Assembly (NCBI GenBank): GCA_027459705.1
Contig: DAIDHM010000118.1
Span: 1-64,000, forward strand
From: Ktedonobacteria bacterium
Lineage (GTDB): Bacteria; Chloroflexota; Ktedonobacteria; Ktedonobacterales; JACDGC01
DNA: 64,000 nt
Direction: 5' to 3'
Positions 3,869 through 30,531 of the stretch are shown piece after piece. The notes under the pieces are model-generated. The model was not told where the DNA came from and searched no databases. It saw only the letters and a list, made by a program, of their open reading frames with translations. Positions within the stretch are counted from its first letter, which is position 1, and each line of letters opens with the position of its first letter. The position numbers were made by a program, and so were the translations under genes.

Positions 3869-4081
3869 TCAGGGCACGGGATCGTACAGATTGCCCTTAT
3901 AGAAAGGATGGCAACGCCCGATGCGCTTGATGGCCATCCAGCCGCCTCGCAGGAGGCCATATTTATCGACCGCTTCGTAGCCATAATGCGAACACGATGG
4001 CGTAAAACGACACGACGATGGGAAGATGTTCGACAGGGTGAGCTGATACAGGCGAATGACGCCTAAACCGACGTATTTCAT
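3869..4081 (-). CDS. yidD: YidD membrane protein insertion efficiency factor
   Basis: A 70-residue protein with the hallmark pattern [22 protein letters not shown], including the conserved cysteines, and a leading hydrophobic/amphipathic helix. The family helps YidC-dependent insertion at the inner face of the membrane. The start codon overlaps the rnpA stop by 4 bases (ATGA) and yidC follows, the standard order rpmH-rnpA-yidD-yidC. The length is normal for the family. Confidence 0.95.
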
Positions 4082-4485
4082 GTGTTATCCTCGCCCTGCA
4101 TTGGGCGACTGGCCCGCACTGCTTGCTGATCCGCGGGTATTAGCCGCAGATGCGACTGTTGAATGAGTCGATCGAGATCGGTTCCGAGTTCATCATAGGC
4201 CGCCGCCGCGGCGCCCGGTTTCGCGGTGATGATGAGATCATAGCCCGCCAGGAGGGTGGTGTGCCGCCCTTGCATCAAGGCGCGCAAGCGTCTTTTGACC
4301 AGATTACGTACCGTTGCCTTACCCACACGCTTACTGACCACGTAGCCGATGCGGGTCACCGTCCGCGCATTTGCTACCCAGGCGATCGAGAGGAGGCTGC
4401 TATGCCGACTACGCCCGCGCTGCCGCACAATAGCGAAATCGCCGCTCGCGCGCACCCGTTCGGTTCGTTTCGTCATCATGCGCAC
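4078..4485 (-). CDS. rnpA: Ribonuclease P protein component
   Basis: A 135-residue basic protein carrying the RNR signature ([18 protein letters not shown]) and the preceding RIGYVVSKR strand. It is the protein subunit of RNase P, which matures tRNA 5' ends. The start is uncertain: GTG at 4485, ATG at 4479 and ATG at 4476 are all in frame, and none has a strong ribosome-binding site. This may mean coupling to rpmH, whose stop is at 4502-4504. The length is slightly above the usual ~115-120 because of a longer C-terminus. Confidence 0.95.
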
Positions 4486-4501
4486 CAGCGGCGAAACGAT
4501 C

Positions 4502-4639
4502 TTACTCGACCGTCAAACGCCAACGTCCCTTGAGTCGGCGCATCTTGAGTACACGGCGCCCATTGCGCGTCGCCATTCGTTTCATGAAACCATGCTCGCG
4601 CAGGCGAGGAATTCGATGTGGCTGATAGGTCCGCTTCAT
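4502..4639 (-). CDS. rpmH: 50S ribosomal protein L34
   Basis: A 45-residue protein beginning [18 protein letters not shown], followed by the basic [17 protein letters not shown] segment and [11 protein letters not shown] at the C-terminus. This matches L34 from end to end. It is the first gene of the minus-strand operon, about 85 bases downstream of the predicted transcription start. The length is normal (44-47 residues). Confidence 0.97.
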
Positions 4640-4697
4640 GGTGTGTCAGCAGCGGATCGTGGCCGCCGCATCCCCTTTCGTGCTGTGTCCCAGGTCT

Positions 4698-4758
4698 GCA
4701 CCACCCTCTGTGGTGCCTTATTCCACATAATTATACGCCCCACAGTCGACGGTGTCAA
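4698..4758 (-). promoter_or_regulatory. Consensus promoter and leader hairpin of the rpmH operon
   Basis: On the minus strand, TTGACA (4758-4753) is followed by a 17-base spacer and TATAAT (4735-4730): both hexamers match the sigma-70-type consensus exactly. Transcription should begin near 4723. Just inside the transcript, 4698-4716 forms a 7-bp hairpin (GCACCAC/GTGGTGC, 5-base loop). A perfect promoter suits a ribosomal protein and RNase P operon. Confidence 0.85.
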
Positions 4759-4792
4759 ACCGTAGGCACCGCCTGGCTACCTCTGCGCTACG

Positions 4793-5668
4793 TCAGCCTT
4801 GGATTGTGCAATCATCGATATACCAGGGTGATTGCGCGGCCAGGGTCGATCCAGCGGGTGTCTCCAGTCGCACACCCATGCCATGCACCAGGGACGCGTT
4901 GAAATGGGGGTCAGCGTTATCTCCCACCGTCAACGAGATCGCAAACCAGCGGTCCACATGCGCGGCATCGATATTGATATAAGTACTGTAGCTGTTGGCG
5001 TACGCGCTGTCCTTGACGAAGATGCGCACGAAGGTCTCGAATGGCCCGATGACCGTCAGCGTGTGTGGAATGTAGACAGAGCACGTCACCTGTGCGCCAC
5101 TCGCCAGATCATAGGTTGCCGCGGGCGGCCGACCCGCCGGGGGGGACGTGTCGAAAAACACAACGGCTTCAGTATGCGTATAGGCATTCGGAATTCCCGG
5201 CAGCGCCGCGAACCCTGGGCTGGCCTCGCCCGCCAGCTGCGCGTCGACTTCCAGCGCGTGCGTGCCGCTGGCCGCATACCGGGTTGTGGTCGTGAGCGCT
5301 GTCGGTTTCTGGCCCGCCTCGGTGACCGTCCATCCGTCTGTCCCATCCTCAAAGTCATAGGCGGCATGCGACACATAGGGCGTCGCCACCGCGCTGGCAC
5401 TGTGGGGAACGCGCGTCGTTTGCCAGACAAAGACGGAACTATCGATCGCCAACGTCATCAGCGAGAGTGTCGCTATGATGATGACCCAGCGCCGGAACCA
5501 CGGGCCGCGTCCGGTAGCCGCTGGCCCAACAACCGCACGAGCCTCAGACCGCTGAGGATTCCCCGAACGATCGAACACATAACTGAAGATCGCTACACCG
5601 TATCCAATCCCCGTCATCAAGAGCGAGACCATGCCGATGATTCGTATACTCGTGTTCAGGATGTTCAT
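4793..5668 (-). CDS. Membrane protein with an extracytoplasmic CBM-like domain
   Basis: A 291-residue protein of unknown function. Two hydrophobic segments are visible, about residues 8-30 and 60-80 (RRWVIIIATLSLMTLAIDSSVFVW). The rest (about 100-291) looks like an extracytoplasmic beta-sandwich. It opens with YDFEDGTDGWTV and ends with WYIDDCTIQG, a start/end pattern common in carbohydrate-binding modules and jelly-roll domains that bind glycans. Nothing catalytic was seen. It sits immediately upstream of the rpmH promoter on the same strand, where dnaA is found in many genomes. The glycan-binding role is inferred from fold-like features only. Confidence 0.6.
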   Translation of the reverse strand: MNILNTSIRIIGMVSLLMTGIGYGVAIFSYVFDRSGNPQRSEARAVVGPAATGRGPWFRRWVIIIATLSLMTLAIDSSVFVWQTTRVPHSASAVATPYVSHAAYDFEDGTDGWTVTEAGQKPTALTTTTRYAASGTHALEVDAQLAGEASPGFAALPGIPNAYTHTEAVVFFDTSPPAGRPPAATYDLASGAQVTCSVYIPHTLTVIGPFETFVRIFVKDSAYANSYSTYINIDAAHVDRWFAISLTVGDNADPHFNASLVHGMGVRLETPAGSTLAAQSPWYIDDCTIQG

Positions 5669-5901
5669 GTGCCCGTACTCCCGGCAGTGCTCGCGACTGA
5701 CGCGCGCGTAGAGTGGGGATCCGGCTGCCGCGCCACGATCTCGCGCCTGATGCTACCAGGGAGCGATGGATCTCGTCAAGTCTTCAGCTACGGGTTCCGG
5801 CATGCTACAATGTCGGTGGGTCATCTGACCCCGGGCCACCCGCACCCCCGGTACGCAGCCGGTAACTACCCGTGACCTTGTGGATGGAGTGACGAGTAAC
5901 C

Positions 5902-8900
5902 ATGCCCTGGTTCTTTCGCCGACCCGCGCGCACTGAACACACCGCTCCTCCTGCGGTGGCCACCTCGTCCTGTCCGCGGTGCCACGCCTCGAACCCTCTG
6001 GATGCCCGCTACTGCAATCAGTGCGGCCTCGCCCTATCGCCTGCGGCGGGGGCTACGGATACGCTCCCTGAGCCGGTGACCTCGCCCCGCCCCACCACGA
6101 GCGATGAGCGTCGCATTGTCACTGTCCTCTTCGCCGACCTCACCAACTCCACCGGGCTGGCCGAGACCCTGGAAGTCGAAGAACTACGCCGCCTCCTCTC
6201 CGACTATTTCAGCCTGATGGCCGAACAGATACATCGCCATGGCGGCATCGTCGAAAAATTTATTGGCGATGCTGTCATGGGCATCTTTGGCCTGCCGCGG
6301 TCCCATGAGGATGATCCCATCCGCGCTGTCCGCGCCGCGCTTGACATGCAGGCCGCGCTGCATCGCTGGAACGAGCAACGCCAGACCAACCAACCTGGCG
6401 CCCCGGCGCTCACCATGCGCATCGGCGTGAATACCGGGAATGTCGTCGCCACCGCCGCGGAAGACCGCCGAGACTTCCTCGTCACCGGCGACCCCGTCAA
6501 CGTCGCCGCGCGGCTCCAGCAGACCGCCGAGCCTGGCACGGTCGTCGTTGGCCCGCGCACCTATCGCGATGTGCGCAGCGCTGTCCTCGCCGTGCCCCTC
6601 CCCGCCACCGAACTCAAAGGCAAAGCCCGCCCCATCCGTGCCTGGGAAGTGCGCGCGATGCGCGACGTGAATCCCGTGCCACTCGCCCGCGCCCGCAACC
6701 TCGAACCGCCCCAGACCAGGCTCGTAGGCCGTGAAGTCGAAATGCGACTCTTGCTGAATGTGTACGACCGCGTCAGGCATGACCGTCGCCCGCATATCGT
6801 CACCATCGTCGGCGCGCCAGGCATAGGTAAGACGCGGCTCGCTCGCGAATTCCTCGCCACCATCGCCGAGACCTACCCCGAACCAGAGATTCTGGTTGGA
6901 CGCACCGCCCTCTACGGCGAAAGTATCACCTACTGGCCTTTAGTCGAGATCCTGCGAGAGTTCTGCGACATCGCCCCTACCACGGGCACCGGACCATCCG
7001 GCGACACCGGACTGACAACGGGCCACCCGGCTTCCGGCGGCATCGGCATCCCCGACCCACTGGATGCCGCGCGCGGCCAGCTCCTGGCCGCTGTTCGCCA
7101 GGCCCTCACCGCCGCTGGTAGCGCGGAGGACCCCGTCAGCATCGCCCACGCTCTGGGCATCGCCATCGGCCTGGATCCTGTGACAGCGGATCATCCGGCC
7201 GCACGCGGCGCCGAACTGACCCAGCCAACCCCGCCCTCCCCGGAGAACATGATCCACCCATGGCGCGTCTTTTTCGCCGCGATCGCCACCGTGGGACCAT
7301 TAGTCCTCATGATTGACGACCTCCAATGGGCAGATCCCTCCCTCTTGACGCTGCTCGAAGCCGTGATGGCCCCCACTACCCCCTTGCCGATCATGCTCCT
7401 CTGCACGACGCGCCCAGAGATGTTCGAACGCGGCCCCGGCGCCGGATGGCCCGGGGCGCACAGTGGCAAAAGCGACCGCCTGCAACTCGCGTTAGAGCCC
7501 TTGAACATGGAGCAGAGCGCGCAACTCATGGCGGATCTGTTGGGCGGCGCAACCTTGCCAGAGGAAATGCGCGCAGCAATCCTACAGCGCGCCGAAGGCA
7601 ACCCCTTTTTCGTCGAAGAGATCGTACGCATGCTCATCGACCGCCACATCCTCGTGCGCGACGATGGCGATGTCGCCGACCTGTCCGCTGGCGACAGTGG
7701 ATCGCCAACGGATTCGCCGACCCCCAATTGGGAAGTGCTGGGACCCTGGGCCGACGCCGAGGGCGGAGGTGAGATCGTCATCCCCGATACCGTCCAGGGC
7801 GTGCTAGCCGCTCGCCTGGATCTGCTGACACCGCCCGAGCGCGAAGTCTTGCGCCATGCCGCCATCATCGGCCGCACCTTCTGGCCCGGCGCAATCCTCG
7901 GGATCGCCCCCGAACTCACGCGCCACGCAGTGCTTGCCACGCTGGAAGATCTGGCGCGCAAGGATCTTATCACGACCTCGGCAGGGCCGGCCCCAGGCGA
8001 TACTCCCAGCGCCCCCGGCGAAGAACGCTACACCTTCAAACACGTTCTGACACGCGACGTCGTCTACGAAACCATGTCGCGCAGCCGTCGCGCCCAGGAA
8101 CACCTGCGTTTCGCTACCTGGCTGGAATCTTTCGCCACCGGTGCCGCAGCGGCACCGGACCATCCGGCGGCATCAGACCTGCCGCCAGCCCGCGACCGCC
8201 TCCATGAATATGCCGAATGGCTCGCTCGCCACTATGAAGAATACTATCGCCAGTCCGGGCTCGCGCGTGGCCGCGAAGAGTTCAGCGAGCAACGCTCCAT
8301 GATCCTCCAGAAAACCATCACCTACCTGGAAATGGCTGGTGACAGCGCCATCGATCGCCATGCCGCGCAGGCCGCAATCCGCGCCTATAGCCGCGCCTTG
8401 CACTTGCTCGAAGAAGACGCCGCCATCCACATCAAGGATCCTGAACGGCGACACCTCTTTATCTTGCTTAACGCGCGCCGCGGCGACGCCCGCGCCCTGC
8501 GCTCAGATGGCGATGGCGCCTGGCGCGACTATAAAGAAGCCTTGCGCTGGTGGTTGCAAGCGGATGTGCCCACGCCGCCGGATGGTCCGGTGCCACTCGA
8601 CGCGTCCGCCATGACAGATACCCTCCGCGCGGAACGTGCCACCGGTATGCGCCTCTATCGTCGCCTCGTCACCCTCCCGACGCGCTATCCCAGTTGGTTT
8701 CGCAACCCACCCATGATTCAGGAACTGCACGGCTATCTGACCGCTGGCCTGCGCCTGGCCGAGGCCGCCGGCGAATCACATGCCCTGGACCGCGCGGCAT
8801 TGCTGACGGCCAAGACTTTCTTCTGGTGGTCCTGGCCACAAGGCCGCGGCCAGGCGCAGCTGCGCGACGCCCTCGCCAGCGCCGAAGAAGCCGTGCGCAT

Positions 8901-9984
8901 CGCGGAACTGCTGGACGCGCCGCGCGAAGCCTCTGTCGCCCTCGACGCGCTGGGCAATATGCAGGCCACCATCACCGACCTCCGCGGACATCTCGCCAGC
9001 CAGGCGCGTCGCCTCTTCTGGGCGCGGCGCATCGAAGATCACAACGAGATCATCGATATCCACAGTGAGGTCAGCGCCGCGCACCAGATGCTTGGCGCGT
9101 ATCCTCGCGCCGTCTACCATGCCAATGTCGCCCTGGCAGAAGCGGCCCGCGATACCAACGAAATCTTGCGCACTCAGGCCATACAGCGGCTCGTCATCGC
9201 CTATTTCGAATGGGATCACTTCAATGAAGCCATCGCGCGCGGTGTGGAACTGCAAGGGTTGACCGCGCGCGTCGCCGTCAGTGGCGCCGGACCTTCCGGC
9301 GGCTCCGGACAACCAGGCCGCACCGGACCCTCCGGCGGCCAGAATCACTATCGCTGGGCGATGCTCGCGCTCGCCCTGGCCTATCTCCGCACTGATCAAC
9401 CGGACCCTGCGGATCAGATCTTGCGCCAGCTCGCCGAGTTGCCTCCGATCTTCGAATCTCAGTACGTCGTCGTCTTGCGCGGTCGTGTGCAGGTCGCGCT
9501 CGGCTCCATCAACGAGGCCATCCGCACCTTTCAAGACGCCTTGAGCATACGCGCTGGCCGCCACAGTCAGCCCATGCTCCTCGCCGAACTCGCAGAACTT
9601 GGCGCCATGCTCGACAATGCCGAGCTCACCGCCACCTATGGCGCGCGCGCCGTCACCCTCGCCGAGCGGTCTGGCGCGCGCAAACCTCTGGCCCAGGCCT
9701 TGCGAGCTCGGTCCGGCGTCGCGTTACGAGCCGAACGAACACAGGAAGCCTGGCGCGACCTGCAGGCCGCCCTCAACATCTTTGACGCGCTGGGAACCCG
9801 CTGGGAATCCGCACGGACGCAGGTCGTGATCGCCGCCTACTGGCAGCGGCGTGGACCGACATATAGCGAATCTTCCCAGGCCGCGTTGCAGCGCGCGATG
9901 GAACTTTTCGAGCAAGTCGGCGCCCCACATGACGCCCAACGTTGCCGTGCCGCGCTGGCGAACAGCCAGGTGCCCTGGCCCTGA
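5902..9984 (+). CDS. Zinc-ribbon / nucleotidyl cyclase / AAA ATPase / TPR regulator
   Basis: A 1360-residue multidomain protein. A zinc ribbon has Cys24, Cys27, Cys38 and Cys41. A class III adenylate/guanylate cyclase domain covers about 70-250, with the metal-binding aspartates at FADLTNS (Asp79) and FIGDAVMG (Asp123) and the VTGDPVNVAARL segment. A STAND/AAA-type ATPase follows, with Walker A GAPGIGKT at about 304-311 and Walker B LVLMIDDLQWAD at about 465-476. The C-terminal half (about 800-1340) is alpha-helical and TPR-like. The family couples a cyclase module to a large ATPase switch and protein-protein repeats; its ligands are unknown. Four blocks of a dispersed DNA repeat lie inside the gene and encode Gly/Pro/Ala-rich linkers (residues about 360-385, 748-762, 890-898 and 1126-1147). 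Confidence 0.88.
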   Translation: MPWFFRRPARTEHTAPPAVATSSCPRCHASNPLDARYCNQCGLALSPAAGATDTLPEPVTSPRPTTSDERRIVTVLFADLTNSTGLAETLEVEELRRLLSDYFSLMAEQIHRHGGIVEKFIGDAVMGIFGLPRSHEDDPIRAVRAALDMQAALHRWNEQRQTNQPGAPALTMRIGVNTGNVVATAAEDRRDFLVTGDPVNVAARLQQTAEPGTVVVGPRTYRDVRSAVLAVPLPATELKGKARPIRAWEVRAMRDVNPVPLARARNLEPPQTRLVGREVEMRLLLNVYDRVRHDRRPHIVTIVGAPGIGKTRLAREFLATIAETYPEPEILVGRTALYGESITYWPLVEILREFCDIAPTTGTGPSGDTGLTTGHPASGGIGIPDPLDAARGQLLAAVRQALTAAGSAEDPVSIAHALGIAIGLDPVTADHPAARGAELTQPTPPSPENMIHPWRVFFAAIATVGPLVLMIDDLQWADPSLLTLLEAVMAPTTPLPIMLLCTTRPEMFERGPGAGWPGAHSGKSDRLQLALEPLNMEQSAQLMADLLGGATLPEEMRAAILQRAEGNPFFVEEIVRMLIDRHILVRDDGDVADLSAGDSGSPTDSPTPNWEVLGPWADAEGGGEIVIPDTVQGVLAARLDLLTPPEREVLRHAAIIGRTFWPGAILGIAPELTRHAVLATLEDLARKDLITTSAGPAPGDTPSAPGEERYTFKHVLTRDVVYETMSRSRRAQEHLRFATWLESFATGAAAAPDHPAASDLPPARDRLHEYAEWLARHYEEYYRQSGLARGREEFSEQRSMILQKTITYLEMAGDSAIDRHAAQAAIRAYSRALHLLEEDAAIHIKDPERRHLFILLNARRGDARALRSDGDGAWRDYKEALRWWLQADVPTPPDGPVPLDASAMTDTLRAERATGMRLYRRLVTLPTRYPSWFRNPPMIQELHGYLTAGLRLAEAAGESHALDRAALLTAKTFFWWSWPQGRGQAQLRDALASAEEAVRIAELLDAPREASVALDALGNMQATITDLRGHLASQARRLFWARRIEDHNEIIDIHSEVSAAHQMLGAYPRAVYHANVALAEAARDTNEILRTQAIQRLVIAYFEWDHFNEAIARGVELQGLTARVAVSGAGPSGGSGQPGRTGPSGGQNHYRWAMLALALAYLRTDQPDPADQILRQLAELPPIFESQYVVVLRGRVQVALGSINEAIRTFQDALSIRAGRHSQPMLLAELAELGAMLDNAELTATYGARAVTLAERSGARKPLAQALRARSGVALRAERTQEAWRDLQAALNIFDALGTRWESARTQVVIAAYWQRRGPTYSESSQAALQRAMELFEQVGAPHDAQRCRAALANSQVPWP
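6985..7040 (+). repeat. Dispersed CCGGA-N3-TCCGG element, copy in cyclase gene (1)
   Basis: GGCACCGGACCATCCGGC (6985-7002) is followed by a degenerate copy ending in CCCGGCTTCCGGCGG. It is read in the frame that gives GTGPSGDTG and GHPASGG, a flexible linker between the Walker A and Walker B parts of the ATPase domain. Confidence 0.75.
8151..8184 (+). repeat. Dispersed element, copy in cyclase gene (2)
   Basis: GGCACCGGACCATCCGGC at 8151-8168 followed by a degenerate half copy. Here the element is read in a different frame from the copy at 6985 and encodes APDHPAASDLPPA. Confidence 0.75.
8574..8594 (-). repeat. Dispersed element, inverted copy in cyclase gene (3)
   Basis: GCCGGATGGTCCGGTGCC at 8577-8594 is the exact reverse complement of the 18-mer found at 6985 and 8151. 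In this orientation it encodes PPDGPVP in the same protein. Confidence 0.75.
9283..9340 (+). repeat. Dispersed element, multiple copy in cyclase gene (4)
   Basis: Two close copies (GGCGCCGGACCTTCCGGC at 9283-9300 and GCACCGGACCCTCCGGCGG from 9320) flank a degenerate one. It encodes GAGPSGGSGQPGRTGPSGG, a linker between two TPR-like blocks. Confidence 0.75.
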
Positions 9985-10032
9985 CCGCCGCGCATACCGG
10001 GGCGACCATCGGCATCGGACTGACATTGGACT

Positions 10033-10050
10033 GGCACCGGACCTTCCGGC
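10033..10050 (+). repeat. Dispersed element, intergenic copy upstream of pfkA
   Basis: A perfect GGCACCGGACCTTCCGGC between the cyclase stop codon and the pfkA promoter, with degenerate half copies on both sides (about 10011-10060). Confidence 0.75.
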
Positions 10051-10106
10051 TTCCGGCTCGATCCGCACACAAACCCGCGCCCAACGCGCCAACAACCCGG
10101 AGCATT

Positions 10107-10135
10107 TTGGCAGCGGGCGGTTTTTAGAGTATAGT
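10107..10135 (+). promoter_or_regulatory. Predicted pfkA promoter
   Basis: TTGGCA (10107-10112), a 17-base spacer, and TATAGT (10130-10135). Expected transcription start near 10142. The promoter lies about 60 bases after the intergenic copy of the dispersed element. Confidence 0.7.
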
Positions 10136-10262
10136 ACAAGCAGATGAACCACAGGTGGAGCGAGCGATGGAGCGCATGGGCGACCAACTCGCCAGCACCG
10201 CGGCGCGGTACCGAGACGTCCCGCGCTCTACAGAATACGCGAGAGAAAGCGCAGGTGTGGTC

Positions 10263-11237
10263 ATGGGACAGCTCGATCGCATCGCCATCCTCACCAGTGG
10301 TGGTGATGCCCCCGGCATGAATGCCGCGATTCGCGCGGTCGTACGAACCGCCTCCGCCTATGGCATCACAGCCTATGGCGTCAGGCGGGGCTTTGCTGGC
10401 CTCGTTGAAGGCACCCTCGAAATCCTCACGGACCGCGATGTCGCCGGTATCTTGCAGCATGGGGGCACCATGCTCAGCAGCGCGCGCCATCCCGCCTTTC
10501 GCGACGAGTCTGTACGTCGCGTTGCGCTCGAACACCTGGCCGCGATTGGCATCGACGCGTTAGTCGTCATCGGCGGCAATGGATCCCAGCAGGGAGCGCT
10601 GGCGCTGGCGCGCATGGGCTTCCGCGTGGTCGGCATCGCCTCGACAATCGACAATGACCTCAATGGCACGGAGACGACAATCGGCGTCGACACCGCCCTC
10701 AACACCGCCACGCACTACATCGATATGCTCAAGGACACGGCCACCTCGCACCAGCGCGCCTTCATCGTCGAAGTGATGGGACGCGACTCCGGTTACCTCG
10801 CGATGATGACGGCGATCGCCACCGGCGCCGAGATCGCCGTCGTGCCAGAGTACGCCATCGAACCAGAGACGATCGCTGAAAATGTCCGCGAAGCCTACGC
10901 CCGACACAAAGCGCATTACATCATCGTCGCCGCCGAAGGCGCGGCCCTCAAAGCGCAGCAGATCACCGAGTATCTCTGCCGCCATCCAGGCGTCTTCGAA
11001 GCGCGGCTCAGCATTCTCGGGCACGTGCAGCGCGGCGGCTCCCCCACCGTAGCGGACCGGGTCCTCGCCAGTAACCTCGGCTCCCATGCCGTCCGCGCGC
11101 TGATCGATGGCCGCGATGGCGTCGTGATGGGCTGGCGAACTGGCGCGGTCGTCGAGATTCCGCTCGCCGACGCGGTGCAATCCTGCGTCAAAGTCACGCC
11201 CGAGATGATGACGATGGCGCAGATTCTGGCGCGCTGA
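10263..11237 (+). CDS. pfkA: 6-phosphofructokinase
   Basis: A 324-residue protein from the ATG at 10263 (MGQLDRIAILTSGGDAPGMN), the point where similarity to the family starts; AGGTG lies 6 bases upstream. An upstream ATG at 10167 with AGGTGGAG would add 32 residues and cannot be excluded, since it is only about 25 bases from the predicted transcription start. The enzyme phosphorylates fructose 6-phosphate in glycolysis. The catalytic TIDND motif and MGRDSGYLA are present. The nucleotide-binding loop reads GGNGS rather than the usual GGDGS: the Asp that helps hold Mg2+ in Escherichia coli PfkA is Asn. The following Gly is kept, which argues for ATP rather than PPi as donor. Confidence 0.88.
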   Translation: MGQLDRIAILTSGGDAPGMNAAIRAVVRTASAYGITAYGVRRGFAGLVEGTLEILTDRDVAGILQHGGTMLSSARHPAFRDESVRRVALEHLAAIGIDALVVIGGNGSQQGALALARMGFRVVGIASTIDNDLNGTETTIGVDTALNTATHYIDMLKDTATSHQRAFIVEVMGRDSGYLAMMTAIATGAEIAVVPEYAIEPETIAENVREAYARHKAHYIIVAAEGAALKAQQITEYLCRHPGVFEARLSILGHVQRGGSPTVADRVLASNLGSHAVRALIDGRDGVVMGWRTGAVVEIPLADAVQSCVKVTPEMMTMAQILAR

Positions 11238-11290
11238 ACGCCTGCTCAATGACCTGTCGCATGCCCACGGATTCGAGTCCTCGTTTGGTG

Positions 11291-11355
11291 TATAGTATGG
11301 GCAGAAGGTCTCCCTGCCTTCAGCTTACCAGTAGAGAATCGTAACTCTACTGGTA
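11291..11355 (+). promoter_or_regulatory. Leader with TATAGT box and perfect 11-bp hairpin upstream of an MFS gene
   Basis: A TATAGT -10-like hexamer at 11291-11296 (no good -35) is followed by a perfect inverted repeat: TACCAGTAGAG (11326-11336), 8-base spacer, CTCTACTGGTA (11345-11355). No T-run follows, so it does not look like an intrinsic terminator. It could be an operator for a dimeric regulator or a 5'-UTR hairpin. Confidence 0.55.
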
Positions 11356-11431
11356 GCATGCTGGGCTGCGCGTGTTCGTTGACTCTCCGCGTATTGCCGC
11401 CGCTCATCGAGATGGAACAGGATGGAACAGG

Positions 11432-12781
11432 ATGGTGAGTTCACCAATTGCCACCAACAGTACGGCGCAACGTATCTCGCAATGGCACCAGATCCGCATC
11501 AACCTGTTCTGGTTCGCCAATAACTTCCACTGGATCGCGCTGATCTCGGTCGTCATCCCCGCGCAAGTCGCGGTCTATTTCGGGCCAACCCATAAAGTGA
11601 CGAACCTGCCGTTGGTCCTTGTCGGCGGCACGCTCGTCGCTGTCCTCGTAAACCCGCTGACCGGCTCGCTCAGCGATTACGTGCGCCTGCGATTGGGGCG
11701 ACGGCGTCCCTTCATGATTGCCGGGACAATCTGCAATGTGCTGGTCTTGATCGCCTTCGCTTTCCTGGGCCAGACCTTCTTGACCACGCCACTCAGTGTG
11801 CCGAGCATCGCGTCGATGGCGTTCTTATTCATCCTGCTGGAAGCGACCAATAACTTCGCTAACGCGCCGTGGAGCGCCATCATCGCCGACCAGGTGCCAT
11901 CACCACAACGCGGCGCGGCCTCCGGGTGGTATGGGGTCATGACGCTGCTTGGGACGATCGGCGGCTTCCTCTTCGCCGGGACAGTGGTCCATTATGGGGA
12001 CAATATCGACACCGCCAGCACCACCTTCCGCGCGGCCTTCGCGCAGGAGATCCTGATCTTCTACCTGGCGCTGGCAGCGGTGCAAGCAGTCTTTGTCATC
12101 CTGACCGTCCTGACCGTCCATGAAACCCTCCCAGCGACCCAACTGCGCTTCACCTGGGGCGATTTCTTGAACCGCTTCCGTCTGGAGACGCGCCGCTTTC
12201 CCGATTTCACCTGGGTGCTACTGACGCGCGTCCTCGTACTGACGGGCATTTGGAGCGTCAATAATTTTCTGCAATACTATTTCGTCGATGTGCTGCACCG
12301 CCACAATGCCACGGGTGATATCGTCATCTTCTCCGGTATCTATCTGGCGACTTCGCTGGTCACGACCTTTATCGGCGGATCGCTCTCAGACCGCGTGGGA
12401 CGCAAGCCGCTGGTCTACCTCTCGGGCGCGATGATGACGATCACCTGTCTGCTCTTCATGCTGTACCAGAACTTCACGGGCGCACTGATCGCCGCCGCAT
12501 TCTTTGGGCTGGGGTTTGGAGCATATACGAGCGTCGATTGGGCGCTGGCGACCGATGTGCTCCCCCCGACCGATCAGTATGGTAAGGACATGGGGATCTG
12601 GTCTGCGGCGGGCATCATCCCCCAGGTGCTGGGCATTGTCCTGGGTGGCATCGTCATCAGCCAGGTCCACGCGTTCTTCGGCGGTAACATTGCCCTGGGT
12701 TATTCGGCGCTCTTCGCCATCGTCGTCGTGCTCTTCGCTTTGGGCACGATCCTGGTCTCGCGCGTCAAGGGCGCGCGCTGA
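11432..12781 (+). CDS. MFS transporter (GPH/SLC45-like)
   Basis: A 449-residue membrane protein with about 12 predicted helices. The start is taken at the ATG at 11432 (MVSSPIATNSTAQRISQWHQ); a GTG at 11372 would add 20 poor residues. The loop between helices 2 and 3 is LSDYVRLRLGRRRPFMIAG, and the equivalent loop in the second half is GGSLSDRVGRKPLVY. These are MFS signature motifs, and the first resembles sugar-cation symporter/SLC45-like proteins. Substrate unknown. Two tandem GATGGAACAG units lie directly before the start codon. Confidence 0.82.
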   Translation: MVSSPIATNSTAQRISQWHQIRINLFWFANNFHWIALISVVIPAQVAVYFGPTHKVTNLPLVLVGGTLVAVLVNPLTGSLSDYVRLRLGRRRPFMIAGTICNVLVLIAFAFLGQTFLTTPLSVPSIASMAFLFILLEATNNFANAPWSAIIADQVPSPQRGAASGWYGVMTLLGTIGGFLFAGTVVHYGDNIDTASTTFRAAFAQEILIFYLALAAVQAVFVILTVLTVHETLPATQLRFTWGDFLNRFRLETRRFPDFTWVLLTRVLVLTGIWSVNNFLQYYFVDVLHRHNATGDIVIFSGIYLATSLVTTFIGGSLSDRVGRKPLVYLSGAMMTITCLLFMLYQNFTGALIAAAFFGLGFGAYTSVDWALATDVLPPTDQYGKDMGIWSAAGIIPQVLGIVLGGIVISQVHAFFGGNIALGYSALFAIVVVLFALGTILVSRVKGAR

Positions 12782-12900
12782 TCGCCCAATCCTGGCACGG
12801 ACCTTGAGACTGGGTTCCATTGCATCCCACGTCGCCTACGCTTCAAAGCAAACGGGTGGAAGACATCGGGACGCAGGGAGGGCATCGCGTGGGATCAGGG

Positions 12901-14448
12901 ATGATCATCAGAAGCAAACGACCGGTATGGATGTCCAGAGTACCCGTCGATCTCGGCGCGCTCCTTTGGTTGAGCGCGTTACCGTTCACGGTCGCTTTTG
13001 GCTCGCTGACAGCGATACATATCCACCAGGTCGCGGCGACCCCAGCCGATGCGCTCGTCTGGTTTGGGGCGCTGGTCCTCGTCTTCGATGCCTGGCGCTC
13101 GCGGGGGCGCCCTACCGTCCCAATCCACCAATCACTCGTGGCAGACAATCAACCATGGGGAGATGGTGATCGGTCCGTTGACAACCGCTTGCCGATCCGC
13201 TCCGCGACCGCACCCAGAGCGCTCCCCGTCGGAATCAAACCGCTCATTGGCGCCTTCCTCGCACTCATCGTCTGGATGCTCTGTTCACTTCTTTGGGCGC
13301 CGGACCGCGTACTGGCGCTCAAAGAAGTGGTGAAATGGAGCGAAGCGCTGCTCGTCTTCTGGATCGCCACGCGCCTGATCACCAGCGCGCGCCACGTGCG
13401 CGTCGCGTTGAGCGCCTGCGCGGTTGTGGCCGCGCTGGAGGCAATGATCGGCGCGGCGCAGGGGACGATCCTCGCGGGCGATATGGCGGTCGCAGCCGAC
13501 CGGGGGGTACGCGTGCTGGGAACTTTCGGCCAACCCAATCCCTATGCGGGTTATCTGAACCTGACATTACCGATCCTGGTGGCGCTACTCGTGATTCCCT
13601 GGCTGGGCTGGCGGGCGCTGGATCCATCAACGGCACAGGACACACCGGCGGCGCAAGCGTGGCAGGGGATCGTTGGCGATCAGGTGCCGCAATCCACCTT
13701 TCGCCTATGGGGAGGGTATCACTGGCAGCTGGTGCTGCCGCTACTCCTGGCGCTGCTCGGCGCGCTCTGGCTGGCGGATTCGCGCGGCGCGATCCTGGGG
13801 TTCCTGGTCGCGCAGATCGCGATGGCCTACTGCGCCTGGCCGCGGGCGCGGCGCTGGTTCGCCATCGCCGCGGGCGCGATCACGCTGCTGGGTGGCGCGG
13901 CGCTGGCACTGGCAGGCCATGCCATCGCGCGGAAATTGGATGCGGCGGGCTGGCGCGGGTTGGATAACGCCGATCTCAGTCGTAACATCACCGACGCCAA
14001 CTACTCCGCCATCGATCGACTGGCGCACTGGACGGCGGCACTGCGCATGTTCGTGGCGCATCCCTGGACGGGCGTGGGTGCTGGCAACTACGCCAGTCGC
14101 TACCTCGCGTATAATGTCCCGCGCTGGACGCACGCTCTCGGCCATGCCCACAATATCTACCTCAATACCGCCGCCGAGCTGGGGATTCCCGGCCTGCTGG
14201 CATATCTCGTCTTTGTCGCACTGACGCTGGTGTGGTGCTGGCGCGCCGCCGCGCTGACGACAGGCATCGGCCGTGCCCTGGCCATTGGCAGCCTGGGAGT
14301 CGCAGTGGCACTCGTCATACACCAGGCATTCGACGATATGACCACCCACGACATGCTGCTGCAATTCGCGCTGATCCTCGGCTGGACGGGGTCGCTGCCC
14401 TTGATCTGGCCCGCGCGGCGGCGTAGCATATGCATAGGCAAGAACTGA
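12901..14448 (+). CDS. O-antigen ligase / Wzy-family membrane protein
   Basis: A 515-residue protein with about ten membrane helices, started at the ATG at 12901 (MIIRSKRPVWMSRV); an upstream ATG at 12820 is possible. The Wzy_C pattern is clear: GTFGQPNPYAGYL, LADSRGAILGF, then HPWTGVGAGNYASRY, HAHNIYLNTAAELGIPGLLAYLVF. Family members polymerise or ligate lipid-linked glycans on the outer membrane face, or glycosylate proteins. There is no local glycan cluster, so the acceptor is unknown. The methyltransferase gene follows after about 145 bases. Confidence 0.82.
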   Translation: MIIRSKRPVWMSRVPVDLGALLWLSALPFTVAFGSLTAIHIHQVAATPADALVWFGALVLVFDAWRSRGRPTVPIHQSLVADNQPWGDGDRSVDNRLPIRSATAPRALPVGIKPLIGAFLALIVWMLCSLLWAPDRVLALKEVVKWSEALLVFWIATRLITSARHVRVALSACAVVAALEAMIGAAQGTILAGDMAVAADRGVRVLGTFGQPNPYAGYLNLTLPILVALLVIPWLGWRALDPSTAQDTPAAQAWQGIVGDQVPQSTFRLWGGYHWQLVLPLLLALLGALWLADSRGAILGFLVAQIAMAYCAWPRARRWFAIAAGAITLLGGAALALAGHAIARKLDAAGWRGLDNADLSRNITDANYSAIDRLAHWTAALRMFVAHPWTGVGAGNYASRYLAYNVPRWTHALGHAHNIYLNTAAELGIPGLLAYLVFVALTLVWCWRAAALTTGIGRALAIGSLGVAVALVIHQAFDDMTTHDMLLQFALILGWTGSLPLIWPARRRSICIGKN

Positions 14449-14593
14449 TCGAAAAGCGCACAACGAGCGCGCGCATCGCTTACGACACCTTACGCCGCGG
14501 TGGGGCAATCCGGCCCCGTGACCAATAGCGCGCAGTTTCGTCCTGAACAGAGGCGTTCTCGTCGTCATCTCGCGCGCGTTACAAACGCTTGAC

Positions 14594-15466
14594 GTGCCCA
14601 TTGATATCGCCAAGAAGGATCCCACAGATATGCGCCCACTCCGCGATCAACTGCACAGTTCCAGGCCGAGCCTATTGCCGCGACGGCGGCGGTTCTCGGC
14701 CGTGCTGGGCGGCGTCTCGTTCATCCTGGCCGCTATCGGTTGGCTCATCATGAACGAACAGCGACGGCGGTTGCGCATTGCCGTGCAACGCGGCGCAACC
14801 CACCTCTCGCCGCGCTGGCGGCGACCCGTTGACGGGGCATGGCGCTGGTGGCGCCAGATCTGGGTTGACCCGTGGGGACCATATCGTGACGAGGTCGCGG
14901 GGATGGCGATGGGTCATGTGCTGGAGATTGGCGTGGGTAGCTGGCGCAATCTGCGCCGCTATCCTCCCGATGCTACGGTGGTTGGAGTCGAGGCCAATCA
15001 GCGCCTGGTCTTTGCGGCACGGCGCCGCGCCCGTCGATTGCGCCCCGGCGCTGAAGTGTGGCGCGCCCGCGCCGAAGAACTCCCGTTTGCCGACGCAGCC
15101 TTTGATACCGTCGTGACGAATCTCGCGCTCTGCAGCGTCGCAGATCAGGCGGCGGCGTTGGCAGAGATCGCGCGCGTCCTGCGACCAGGAGGCACTCTGC
15201 GTTTCCTGGAGCATGTCCACGCGGAACAGCCTCTATTGGCGGCTGCCCAGACCGTCCTCACCCCCCTCTGGCGTCTGAGTGTCGGTGGCTGTCATCTGAA
15301 CCGCGACACACGCCAGGCCATCCTCGACGCCGGTTTCACCATACACGCATTGACTCAGGTGACGGGTGCCTGGGGACCGGCGCGGCCCACCCTCTATGGT
15401 GTCGCGCTCCGCCCCACCATTGGCCCCATGCCCGTATCACAGGCGCACAGCGACGAGGCGCGCTGA
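14594..15466 (+). CDS. Membrane-anchored class I SAM-dependent methyltransferase
   Basis: A 290-residue protein with a GTG start at 14594; an ATG at 14630 is an alternative. A single hydrophobic segment (FSAVLGGVSFILAAIGWLIM, about 34-53) is followed by a Methyltransf_11-type domain: motif I VLEIGVGSW, acidic VGVEAN, motif IV FDTVVTNLALCSV, and LRPGGTLRFLEHV. The order and the FLEHV motif resemble METTL7-like and phospholipid or small-thiol methyltransferases, but the substrate is not readable. Confidence 0.8.
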   Translation: MPIDIAKKDPTDMRPLRDQLHSSRPSLLPRRRRFSAVLGGVSFILAAIGWLIMNEQRRRLRIAVQRGATHLSPRWRRPVDGAWRWWRQIWVDPWGPYRDEVAGMAMGHVLEIGVGSWRNLRRYPPDATVVGVEANQRLVFAARRRARRLRPGAEVWRARAEELPFADAAFDTVVTNLALCSVADQAAALAEIARVLRPGGTLRFLEHVHAEQPLLAAAQTVLTPLWRLSVGGCHLNRDTRQAILDAGFTIHALTQVTGAWGPARPTLYGVALRPTIGPMPVSQAHSDEAR

Positions 15467-15521
15467 AAACAGCCCGACACTCTCCACTGCTGGGGAAATT
15501 TTTGACAAGGCGCTGCAAAGC

Positions 15522-16838
15522 ATGAAGACTGGTACGCTCTCCCGGCGCCGCGGCTGGTTCACCCAGGCGCCGCCCAACGCCCGTTGGAACTTCTTCACCA
15601 TGGGCATCGATATGGTCTGGTATAGCCTGGGGATGGGAATTTCCTCAATCTACGCTATCTTGCCGCTCTTCGTCCATCGCCTGACACCGGCCAATTGGGT
15701 AGTGGCATTGATCCCGGCAATCCGCACTGCCGCGCAACTCATTCCGCCGATCTTTATCGCCAGCACCGCCGAACGGCTCGATCGCACCAAGCCCATCTTG
15801 CTGCGGCTGACGGTTCTGGAGCGCATCCCTTTCTTTTTTCTGGCGCTGGCAGTGGTGCCATTGGCGTTCGGACATGATCTGATCCTGCTCTGGATCTTTT
15901 TCACGATGCTGGCGATGCAAGGGATGGGGTCGGGGTTGTCTTTCCCGCCCTGGTTGGACCTCGTCGCGCGCGCGATACCAGATCGGTTGCGAGGCCGCTT
16001 CCTCGGTGGCTGGACTGGCCTGGGCAATGCCACAGGCATCGCGGGCACAGCGCTGGCGGTGGTGATTCTGGCGCGTTTTGCGTGGCCATGGAATTTCGCG
16101 CTGACCTTCGGGCTGACGTTTCTCGCGATGATCATCTCCTTCATCCTGCTGGCACTGGCGCGTGAGCCACTCCGACCGACGCACCAGGCGCCACGCCTCT
16201 CCGCGTCCGCCGCGCGGCGTTTGCGCGCCTGGGTTGGCGATCTCTGGAGCATCGTGCGCGGTGATCCCGCCTTCCGCGGCTACCTGCTCGCCAACGCGCT
16301 GAGCGGATTGGCGGCGCTGGGGAGCGGCCTGCTGGCGGTGGCAGCGCTCAACCAGGCACACTTAAGCGAGACGGAGGTCGGCATCGAAGGGACGATCTTA
16401 CAGGTCGTGTTGATGATCGGCTTCCTTGGCTGGGGCTGGATTGCCGATCGCGTCGGGCATAAGCTCATCCTCATCTGTGGTTCTTTCCTGGGCATGGTGG
16501 CGATGGGCGCGGCGGCAGAGGCGCACGGCTGGCTGGCGATGACGCTGGCCTTCGCCGCCTTTGGCCTGGGAACGGCGGCAATGCAATTGGCGCAGATGAG
16601 CTACGTCGTGGAGTTTGGCCCCGCCGCGCGTCGTCCAATCTACATTGGTCTGGCTTACATCGGTCTCGCACCCTTCGCTGCCGGCGCGCCGCTCCTCGGC
16701 GGCATCCTGGCGGACCGCGTCGGCTATGCCCCCGTCTTCGCGCTTGGCGCGGCATTCAGTTTTGTCGCCGCACTGGCTTTCTGGTGGTTGATTCGCCCAC
16801 CAGCGGCAACGGACGAGCCTGCGGGCACGGCGGCGTGA
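15522..16838 (+). CDS. MFS transporter
   Basis: A 438-residue, roughly 12-helix protein. The ATG at 15522 (MKTGTLSRRRGWFTQAPPNA) lies 56 bases after the methyltransferase stop. A longer in-frame reading from 15366 overlaps that gene and has no family character. The loop GWGWIADRVGHKLILICG and the paired six-helix halves are MFS-like. It has no obvious substrate signature. The same strand and short spacing suggest co-transcription with the methyltransferase. Confidence 0.78.
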   Translation: MKTGTLSRRRGWFTQAPPNARWNFFTMGIDMVWYSLGMGISSIYAILPLFVHRLTPANWVVALIPAIRTAAQLIPPIFIASTAERLDRTKPILLRLTVLERIPFFFLALAVVPLAFGHDLILLWIFFTMLAMQGMGSGLSFPPWLDLVARAIPDRLRGRFLGGWTGLGNATGIAGTALAVVILARFAWPWNFALTFGLTFLAMIISFILLALAREPLRPTHQAPRLSASAARRLRAWVGDLWSIVRGDPAFRGYLLANALSGLAALGSGLLAVAALNQAHLSETEVGIEGTILQVVLMIGFLGWGWIADRVGHKLILICGSFLGMVAMGAAAEAHGWLAMTLAFAAFGLGTAAMQLAQMSYVVEFGPAARRPIYIGLAYIGLAPFAAGAPLLGGILADRVGYAPVFALGAAFSFVAALAFWWLIRPPAATDEPAGTAA

Positions 16839-25884: not shown

Positions 25885-26931
25885 ATGATGCAGCACACCC
25901 ATTCCTCATCTGCGGCGATCATGCAAGACTGGCAACATTGGCGCGCTATCCAGAAGTACATCGGACTGACGAGCGCGGATATCGATCTCATCTACCGTTC
26001 GCGCCAGGTCATCCTTAGCAAACGCGATCCCATCATCCACCAATATCATGAGGCGATGTTCGCGGAACCGAGCTTGCGGGTGATCGCGACAAGGGAATCG
26101 AATCGCGCCCGCCTCGTACAGGCCGCGAATGGCTATCTGGAGTCTTTGACCCTTCCCAACATTGATGATGCATATATCGCGGGCCGTGTCCACATCGGCC
26201 AGACGCATGTCCGCGTCAAACTCTCCCAGGAGTGGGTCCATTCAGCGGCGATCGTACTCTTCAATGCCATCGCCGCAAATTTGCCGGTTGAGAGTGATAT
26301 GCGTCTGTTCCAGGCGATCTTGAAGCGTATCATGTTTGACAACATTTTCATCGTGGGGGCCTATGTGCAGGGCCTTATGAGCGTCAACGCCGAATATCGA
26401 CAGCGCATGGAGAACTGGGAGAAAGAGATCGGCCAGCATGTCGAGCGTATCACCCAGATCGCCGGACAACAAGACGCTGCTTCGACACATCTCACGGCGT
26501 CCCAGCAGGCGATCGTCGGCGCCATGCGACCATTGCAGACGAGCTTGAGCGGCATCCAGCAGATCTCGTCTTTCATCATGGAAGTCTCGGAGCAGTCGAA
26601 CTTATTGGGGCTGAACGCCGCCATCGAAGCGGCACGCGCGGGCGAAAGCGGCCGCGGATTTTCCGTGGTCGCGGAGGAGATCCGCAAATTGGCCCAACGC
26701 TCGCGTGAATCAACCAAACAGATCACCGATGCGATCGAGACGATTGCTCGTCAATCGCGCAGTGTTGATGGCCACATTCAGGAAGGACTGGCGATTGCAG
26801 AAGAAGTCGCCGCGACCGCCGCCGAATTGCATGAGCTCATGCGCAAATTGGAAGACGCGTTCACGAACAATGATGCCCCTGACACCGGATCGGCAGCAGT
26901 CCACACGCAAACTCGACATCAGGTCGCCTGA
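25885..26931 (+). CDS. Globin-coupled sensor with MCP signalling domain (HemAT-like)
   Basis: A 348-residue soluble protein with no membrane helix. Residues about 15-175 form a protoglobin-type sensor domain. His108 in QTHVRVKL aligns with the proximal haem His in the HVRIGL motif of Bacillus HemAT. A linker (about 175-215) leads to a short MCP signalling hairpin with the highly conserved tip ([35 protein letters not shown]). HemAT is about 430 residues; the shorter length here removes much of the methylation-helix region. O2 sensing is known for the family. No other chemotaxis genes are in the window, so the output partner is unknown. Confidence 0.88.
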
Positions 26932-27025: not shown

Positions 27026-27061
27026 GGCACCGGACCTTCCGGCGGCACCGGACCTTCCGGC
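27026..27061 (+). repeat. Two perfect tandem copies of the dispersed 18-mer
   Basis: GGCACCGGACCTTCCGGC occurs twice head to tail (27026-27043 and 27044-27061), just before the ribosome-binding site of the M24 peptidase gene. An in-frame ATG upstream would translate it as APDLPAAPDLPA, but the family start is further on. Confidence 0.85.
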
Positions 27062-27089
27062 AGAATCGGCAAAGGAGTGGATACGACAC

Positions 27090-28343: not shown

Positions 28344-28577
28344 TTATTCTGCCACAAGGTCAGCACGGATGCGCTGCACACCCTGACCAATATTCTCGGC
28401 CTTGAGGATGCGGAAAGTTCCCATGCCGCGCGTATGGCTCACATGCGGGCCGCCGCAGACCTCGCGCGAGTAATCGCCAATTCGGTACACTTTGACGGTT
28501 TCGGGATAGCGTTCGCCGAAGAAGGCCAGCGCGCCACCTGCCAGGGCTTCTTGCAATGGCATCATCGCCATATCCAC
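28344..28577 (-). CDS. alaS: alaS 3' segment downstream of an in-frame TAG
   Basis: Seventy-seven codons in exactly the same frame as the upstream alaS reading frame, separated from it only by TAG (28598-28596) and six sense codons. They encode the end of the AlaRS editing domain: MPLQEALAGGALAFFGERYP, VYRIGDYSREVCGGPHV with the Cys and His zinc ligands, and GTFRILKAENIGQGVQRIRA. A GTG (28577) or ATG (28571) could start it, and GGAGGTG lies directly before the ATG, so re-initiation is conceivable. Otherwise it is the tail of a nonsense-interrupted or recoded alaS. It ends RIRADLVAE without the C-Ala domain. Confidence 0.7.
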   Translation of the reverse strand: MDMAMMPLQEALAGGALAFFGERYPETVKVYRIGDYSREVCGGPHVSHTRGMGTFRILKAENIGQGVQRIRADLVAE

Positions 28578-28595
28578 CTCCAGATCGCGGGCGAT

Positions 28596-30128
28596 CTACG
28601 CATTGATGCGATCCTCCACCGCGCGGATCTCCGTGGGCGTCAGCTTCTTTGGATGCGAGAAATCGAAGCGCAAGCGTTCTGGCGTGATGTTGCTGCCCAT
28701 CTGGTGGACATGGTCACCCAACACATCACGTAATGCCTGCTGCAACAGGTGGGTCGCCGTATGGAGTTGGGTTGTCCGCTCGCTATGGTCCGCCAGACCA
28801 CCTTTGAATTTCTCCTGATTGGCAGCGCGCGAGAGTTCGCGGTGGTGACGGAAATGCTCTTCATAGCCCGCCATATCCGCTACCAGGCCACGTTCGCGCG
28901 CCAGTTCCGCCGTAAGAGTCGAGGGAAATCCATAGGTATCGAAGAGGCGGAAGACTATCTCGCCAGACAAGGTCCCGCCGGAGGTCAACACCGGATCACT
29001 CGTGATCCTGTCGAATTCACGGAGTCCACGCGTCAATGTCTGGCCGAAGCGCTCCTCTTCGCGGCCGATCTCCGTGAGGATCATCTCGACCTGGTCGGCG
29101 ATCTCCCGATAAGCCTGGTGGTAGCGCTCGATGATAGTCTGGGCTATCTGGGCGGTGAAAGGAGAGGGCATCCCGAGTTCATGCCCCGCCAGGATCGCGC
29201 GTCGGATAAGGCGACGACAGATATAACCTCGCTCGACATTGCTGGGGATGACCCGATCAGCGATCATAAAGACCGCCGCGCGCAGATGGTCGGCGATGAT
29301 GCGCTCGCGTCGCATGACGCGATCCGGGGCGAGGTCGGCGCGCTGACCGGCGCTGAGTTCACGGATCGCCGCCATCGTCCGATGATAGAGGTCCGTCGCA
29401 TAGACATCGGTGCCCCCCAGCATTGCCAGGATGCGCTCTAAGCCCAGGCCCACATCGATGTTGCGCTGGCGCAAGGGTTCGAATGTGCCCTCGGCGGTCT
29501 TGTTATATGTCATAAAGACGTTATTGCCGATCTCGACAAATGCACCGCAGTCGCACCCAGGGCCACAATCTGGACCACACATCGGTTTGCCAGTCGCGTA
29601 GAACAGCTCAGAGTCAGGACCGCACGGGCCAGTCTGGCCCGCCGGTCCCCACCAGTTGTCATGTTTGGGGAGCGGACGGATGCGTTCAGCGGGAATGCCG
29701 AGAGCGCGCCAGACAGCGATGGCTTCCTCATCGCGCGGTGCATCAGCATCGCCCGCGAAGACGCTCACCCAGATGCGATCGCGCGCCAACCCAAGCACAT
29801 CGGTGAACCATTCGAGCGTCCAGCGCAGTGAATCCTGTTTCCAGTAATCACCCAGCGACCAGAAGCCGAGCATTTCAAAGAATGTTCCGTGCGAGGCGTC
29901 ACCGACCTCCTCGATGTCATCGGTGCGCAGGCACTTCTGTGCGTTCGTCAAACGTTTGCCGAGCGGATGAGGTTCACCCAGCAGGTAGGGGACGAGTGGG
30001 TGCATCCCCGCGGTAGTGAAGAGCACGGTCGGGTCATTCTCTGGCACGAGAGGTGCCGAGGGAATTATGGCGTGGCCGCGTTCTGCAAAAAATGATAAGA
30101 ATGACTGGCGGAGTTGATCACCATTCAT
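28596..30128 (-). CDS. alaS: Alanyl-tRNA synthetase, ending at an in-frame TAG
   Basis: 510 codons from the ATG at 30128 (MNGDQLRQSFLSFFAERGHA), with AAGGAG 8 bases upstream. The class II aminoacylation core is complete (FTTAGMHPLVPYLLGEPHP, KCLRTDDIEEVGD, GLGLERIL). The cysteine cluster CGPDCGPGCDCGAF, the tRNA-recognition helices and the start of the editing domain with LHTATHLLQQAL (two His ligands) follow. The frame stops at TAG (28598-28596) after VEDRINA, then continues without shift into the rest of the editing domain (28577-28344). Including that tail the product would be 594 residues, far below the ~870 of most bacterial AlaRS, because C-Ala is absent. A T-box leader lies upstream. 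Confidence 0.88.
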   Translation of the reverse strand: MNGDQLRQSFLSFFAERGHAIIPSAPLVPENDPTVLFTTAGMHPLVPYLLGEPHPLGKRLTNAQKCLRTDDIEEVGDASHGTFFEMLGFWSLGDYWKQDSLRWTLEWFTDVLGLARDRIWVSVFAGDADAPRDEEAIAVWRALGIPAERIRPLPKHDNWWGPAGQTGPCGPDSELFYATGKPMCGPDCGPGCDCGAFVEIGNNVFMTYNKTAEGTFEPLRQRNIDVGLGLERILAMLGGTDVYATDLYHRTMAAIRELSAGQRADLAPDRVMRRERIIADHLRAAVFMIADRVIPSNVERGYICRRLIRRAILAGHELGMPSPFTAQIAQTIIERYHQAYREIADQVEMILTEIGREEERFGQTLTRGLREFDRITSDPVLTSGGTLSGEIVFRLFDTYGFPSTLTAELARERGLVADMAGYEEHFRHHRELSRAANQEKFKGGLADHSERTTQLHTATHLLQQALRDVLGDHVHQMGSNITPERLRFDFSHPKKLTPTEIRAVEDRINA

Positions 30129-30146: not shown

Positions 30147-30183
30147 GACCGGAAAGCCCAGTTCCGCCGGAGGGTCCGGTTCC
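30147..30183 (-). repeat. Dispersed element between T-box terminator and alaS start
   Basis: GCCGGAGGGTCCGGTTCC at 30166-30183 is a variant of the dispersed 18-mer in reverse orientation, preceded by a more degenerate copy at 30147-30165. The pair lies inside the alaS transcript, between the T-box terminator and the alaS ribosome-binding site. Confidence 0.7.
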
Positions 30184-30231: not shown

Positions 30232-30531
30232 AAAAAAATCCCTCAGCCACTGTCTGGCTGAGGGCGAGTAGAACTCGCGGTACCACCTCATTTGACGCGG
30301 AAGATTTTCCACGCCATCTCCTTCTCCATCATCCAGTGTCTGGCACATATAGTCTCCATAACCGGATAAGAGAGAGGCTCAGATATCGGTGAGCCGCCGG
30401 GAAGACCTCCAGGGTGGCCCGCGCCGCGCCGTCTACATCGAGCTTCCACCCTCTCTCGATTCGCTATCGTCGACGCCGCGCTTCATCCCCTTCACAGGTT
30501 CTATGTTATCTGGCTGAGTTGAATGACATCT
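30232..30531 (-). promoter_or_regulatory. T-box riboswitch of alaS
   Basis: Read on the minus strand, the leader contains the T-box antiterminator sequence AGGTGGTACCGCG (around 30288-30276) and an intrinsic terminator: a 10-bp stem CCCTCAGCCA/TGGCTGAGGG (30264-30240) followed by seven T (30238-30232). The upstream half forms Stem I-like helices; GCC-A in the CGGGCCACC segment (about 30417) is a plausible alanine specifier but is not proven. A TGC-TATACT extended -10 (30546-30538) would start the RNA near 30531. Uncharged tRNA-Ala should stabilise the antiterminator and switch alaS on. Confidence 0.9.

Follow-up and report, generated by a model that had tools for sequence, protein, structure and literature searches.

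A short AlaRS gene, alaS2, in the draft genome of a soil Ktedonobacteria bacterium is interrupted by an in-frame amber codon in the middle of its editing domain, and we regard this stop as probably a recent nonsense allele, CAG (Gln) to TAG, in a dispensable and inducible accessory enzyme. The gene lies on the minus strand of the window, the 64,000-nucleotide stretch of DNA that was analysed. Read through from 30128 to 28344, its frame gives 594 residues and ends in TAA, with an X at position 511 where the TAG stands, and the continuous frame through the editing domain that is expected of a short AlaRS is thus absent. The codon itself was read directly from the letters at 28598-28596, minus strand.

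The two parts of the gene divide one enzyme between them. Residues 1-510 (28599..30128, minus strand) comprise the charging and tRNA-recognition domains and the first half of the editing domain, with a tRNA-synt_2c match of 424 bits, and residues 512-594 together with the TAA (28344..28595, minus strand) comprise the second half. By homology, the stop falls between two zinc motifs, HTATH (28749..28763, ligands H456 and H460) on the 5' side and CGGPH (28443..28457, ligands C558 and H562) on the 3' side. That the frame beyond the stop truly codes for protein is shown by 28347-28577, which on its own matches the Pfam domain tRNA_SAD with 55 bits. An earlier note on this DNA had reported the TAG, the split between the zinc ligands, and intact family sequence beyond the stop, and each of these descriptions agrees with what we find: the frame on either side of the codon encodes one and the same AlaRS.

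The read-through protein, with the TAG entered as X, belongs to the short AlaRS family NF002436/PRK01584 (594 codons, no C-Ala domain), scoring 775.7 bits against a curated cut-off of 529 and covering the profile from about 1 to 592 of 595 positions. The protein retains the catalytic motifs, and its tRNA-recognition part still has the conserved N and D. Near-full coverage of the profile and the lack of C-Ala are shared with the family, whereas the TAG at codon 511 and its presence in addition to a full-length alaS set the window gene apart. Among 47 Ktedonobacteria genomes examined, six carry the 594-aa type, one of these copies being only partly sequenced; the ortholog in Ktedonobacteria bacterium brp13 (AP024096) is 62% identical.

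The source genome (4.6 Mb in 245 contigs, draft, 95% complete, 3% contaminated) encodes a second, intact alaS of 909 aa on contig C114, with catalytic, editing and DHHA1/C-Ala domains, as well as two AlaX-type editing proteins, one on C129 (405 aa) and one on C13 (278 aa). Because the full-length alaS and the AlaX-type genes are intact, it is very unlikely that alaS2 is the essential copy, and the premise of the earlier note that this alaS is essential is not borne out. That note had held that its reading would fall if a second intact alaS existed and the window copy were unexpressed; the second gene has been found, and the leader of alaS2 suggests that the window copy is normally off. The amber codon is an ordinary event, and there is no case here for stop-codon recoding in an essential gene.

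Upstream of alaS2, a putative T-box leader extends from Stem I to the antiterminator at 30257..30504 (minus strand; RF00230, 60.9 bits, E 1.2e-12). Its score is below the Rfam gathering score of 93 for RF00230, as are those of all 14 T-box matches in the genome and of the five orthologous leaders. The hallmarks of the class are present: a specifier codon GCC, for alanine, at 30416..30418, followed by ACCCTGGAGG and occupying a matching position in the leaders of the orthologs; the element TGGTACCGCG with its TGGN bulge, here TGGT at 30282..30285, whose expected partner is the tRNA 3' end ACCA; an intrinsic terminator hairpin with a T run at 30232..30263 (fold z-score -5.1 for 30310-30232); and, as the downstream gene, a matching alaS. 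T-box leaders precede all five Ktedonobacteria orthologs of alaS2 and all four fetched Bacillota homologs, the latter scoring above the gathering score; with its position judged by eye, the specifier reads GCC (Ala) in leaders from Ktedonobacteria and GCA in those from Bacillota. At canonical alaS loci a T-box motif was absent (0/25). The genome also encodes a tRNA-Ala(GGC) that has G3:U70 and A73, ends in A-CCA, and fits the leader at both its specifier (GCC) and its bulge (TGGT).

From this leader we infer that alaS2 is an alanine-starvation-inducible spare. Uncharged tRNA-Ala(GGC) would pair with the leader at two sites, the specifier GCC and the bulge TGGT, the antiterminator would then form, and alaS2 would be transcribed under alanine starvation, everyday charging being left to the full-length alaS. 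A tested precedent exists in Clostridium acetobutylicum, in which the alaS leader is a T-box that answers to tRNA-Ala in vitro (PMC4695836). The window gene resembles that system in placing an alaS behind a T-box, with similar leaders at the four Bacillota homologs, and differs from it in that switching is predicted from the leader, the specifier codon reads GCC, and the enzyme under control is an accessory one.

The earlier note had proposed looking for the same TAG in related genomes, and the comparison returned a sense codon instead: in each of the four Ktedonobacteria orthologs whose sequence extends over the site, the codon is one for Gln (CAA/CAG), the fifth, the G002 copy, ending at a contig edge outside the comparison. 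Since the orthologs read CAA or CAG, a single C-to-T transition (CAG to TAG) suffices to explain the stop. Identity of the window protein to its orthologs is 61-71% before the stop and 70-75% after it. On a fixed tree the window branch measures 0.293 substitutions per site before the TAG and 0.176 after, and dN against the closest ortholog is 0.24 before and 0.21 after, figures that are rough because just 83 residues lie downstream. By identity, branch length and dN over these 83 residues, no faster change or decay was seen 3' of the TAG. Because residues after the TAG are conserved like those before it, the stop appears to be recent or not real; a stop bypassed in translation would leave the same pattern.

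If the stop is a recent nonsense allele, RF1 would end translation after codon 510 in the source genome. A 510-residue product would remain, made up of the domains for charging and tRNA recognition plus one half of the editing barrel, in which two of the four zinc ligands are present. Such a product should lack editing and would probably be weak or unstable. With an intact main AlaRS and two intact AlaX-type proteins, the cell would tolerate the break. Counting against a nonsense allele is the good order of the C-terminal sequence, which a functionless copy would lose in time.

A nonsense allele is the most likely explanation and a consensus error the next most likely, and the 83 residues beyond the stop are too few to tell a young real mutation from a sequence error. 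According to the latter, which we hold to be possible but clearly the less probable, the TAG is absent from living cells, arising from a base-call, assembly or strain-consensus error in a genome that is probably metagenome-assembled, and the gene is intact. The draft state of the assembly, with its 245 contigs and its estimates of completeness and contamination, is consistent with such an error, as are the lack of decay beyond the TAG and the sense codon in every relative that covers the site. The assembly is not error-rich, however: no other interrupted gene was seen among the pairs tested in 424 kb, in a count confined to same-frame stops. C-to-T is, moreover, the commonest type of real mutation. 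The earlier note had listed sequencing error, real nonsense mutation and suppression as alternatives, which was a fair listing.

Second AlaRSs of a different kind bear on whether the truncated protein could itself be of use. In 20 other genomes of the 47, a different second AlaRS (loci L051-L070) is present; no genome among the 47 has both this kind and the 594-aa type, an observation that is only suggestive. The motif GGTGGNACC lies 105-312 nt upstream of the AlaRS match at all 20 loci, and the Rfam T-box model matches at 11 of them with E<0.001. In nineteen of the proteins the tRNA-recognition domain is the last one, the fetched DNA showing no editing domain; L061 (896 aa) is the sole one to keep it. 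In a tree with long branches and an arbitrary root they form two lineages, of 13 members and of seven, L061 falling in the smaller. In the 13-member lineage, tRNA-recognition residues are changed at positions that we take to be N303 and D400 of E. coli AlaRS, and this lineage may therefore do without G3:U70; both residues are retained in the window protein. In-frame stops that had appeared in AlaRS paralogs of four other relatives proved to be the natural ends of catalytic-only proteins, the matches having run to or past those ends. Alanine T-box leaders precede second AlaRSs of three lineages in the class, two of which mostly lack the editing domain.

A functional editing-less accessory enzyme is thus conceivable in Ktedonobacteria, and by analogy the 510-aa product might be a working AlaRS for alanine starvation, like the catalytic-only enzymes of these relatives. 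We consider this improbable. The T-box motif before so many editing-less second enzymes in two lineages speaks for it, as do the intact charging domain and tRNA-recognition residues of the window protein, but the relatives end cleanly at a domain boundary (about residue 440) whereas the window stop falls mid-domain at 510, the unused C-terminal part is undecayed, and none of the 19 editing-less proteins derives from the 594-aa type. The catalytic-only proteins resemble alaS2 as second AlaRSs behind a T-box motif and differ in belonging to two other lineages, in their clean ends, and, in the larger lineage, in the changed recognition residues. Broader, and in our view likewise improbable, is the proposal that in Ktedonobacteria second AlaRSs under starvation control repeatedly lose their editing domain; cells short of alanine would then switch on an enzyme of lower accuracy (Ser or Gly in place of Ala), and the amber codon would be a fresh case. 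Should the editing-less enzymes be able to charge tRNA-Ala, they would show in a natural setting whether cells tolerate or exploit the loss of proofreading during starvation. Loss of AlaRS editing costs growth in E. coli (PMC6918089), and this cost should be relieved by an intact main enzyme and AlaX. AcmF, of ascamycin biosynthesis, is a precedent for editing-less AlaRS relatives: it is AlaRS-like with charging and tRNA-recognition domains only, is reported to have lost activation residues (N219Q, D232E), and is not known to be linked to a T-box (PMC12945691). The Ktedonobacteria relatives differ from AcmF, as there described, in keeping the N of EIWNLVF and the D of DTGMGLER.

Least probable is a bypass of the TAG, in which read-through would yield a whole enzyme or re-initiation at ATG 28571 a two-piece one. 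The downstream frame is conserved, UAG can be read at a low level by near-cognate tRNA-Gln, so that low-level read-through is conceivable from sequence alone, and a GGAGG stands 5 nt 5' of the ATG (GGAGGTGGATATG, 28569..28581, minus strand). The re-initiation site claimed by the earlier note does have this motif, but it is missing in the orthologs: it is formed by Leu-Glu-Val codons, and in place of this Glu the orthologs carry Pro or Gln. A GGAGG so placed precedes 22 of the 2373 ATGs in the window. The suppression raised in that note gains no support, as no tRNA with a CTA anticodon was present among the 39 found (a set that misses a few expected tRNAs) and RF1 is intact. In a 424-kb sample of the 4.6-Mb genome (288 called genes, 279 with a stop), gene ends are TAG in 52 cases, TGA in 161 and TAA in 66, so that TAG, at about 19%, is an ordinary stop; together with the intact RF1 this leads us to reject genome-wide TAG recoding. 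Nor were further TAG-interrupted genes seen in that sample. Same-frame neighbours were also considered as split genes, and in the ten most suspicious of 23 pairs (alaS2 apart) no Pfam domain spans the stop.

The tRNA-Ala(GGC) expected as the ligand of the alaS2 leader is itself encoded within a Leu-specifier (CUC) T-box of leuS (L141:1801-1501, minus strand), where the tRNA (1632-1560) sits between Stem III and the antiterminator; its maturation would split the riboswitch RNA in two. By a strict pattern this nested arrangement occurs in 15/47 Ktedonobacteria genomes, with no match in the reversed control, and in 23/47 when antiterminators just 3' of the tRNA, with leuS next, are counted. Besides L141, the loci are L148-L166, L176-L179, L183, L185-L188, L190 and L192. 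T-box scores at nested leuS leaders reach 108.9 bits, and 11 of the first 15 genomes also carry, a few hundred bases upstream, a gene for tRNA-Ala(CGC). In family f4 the tRNA precedes leuS and a plain terminator follows. We found no published report of a tRNA nested in a leuS T-box, a literature search being a weak test.

On contig C13 of the source genome, an Ile-specifier (AUC) T-box (L138:1501-1761) is followed by the AlaX-type gene (1847-2683) and then by ileS, so that the ileS transcript seems to include this gene for trans-editing; on the strength of the specifier and the downstream ileS we reject an alanine switch for AlaX. A GC-rich repeat, ACCGGACCYTCCGGCGG, often in 18-bp steps, has 79 matches in the genome at <=1 mismatch and none in the reversed control. 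In the window it has 10 matches at <=2 mismatches against 0.06 expected, at 27029-27063, 9286-9338, 8154-8170 and other sites, including one copy between the alaS2 terminator and ATG (30164-30180). G+C is about 63.5% in window 4001-16000, against 57-60% in the rest of the window, and genes there include those for a cyclase-ATPase regulator, PFK, MFS and O-antigen ligase-like proteins. Finally, window 25885-26931 (plus strand) encodes a globin-coupled sensor, in which a Protoglobin domain is fused to a methyl-accepting chemotaxis signalling domain.
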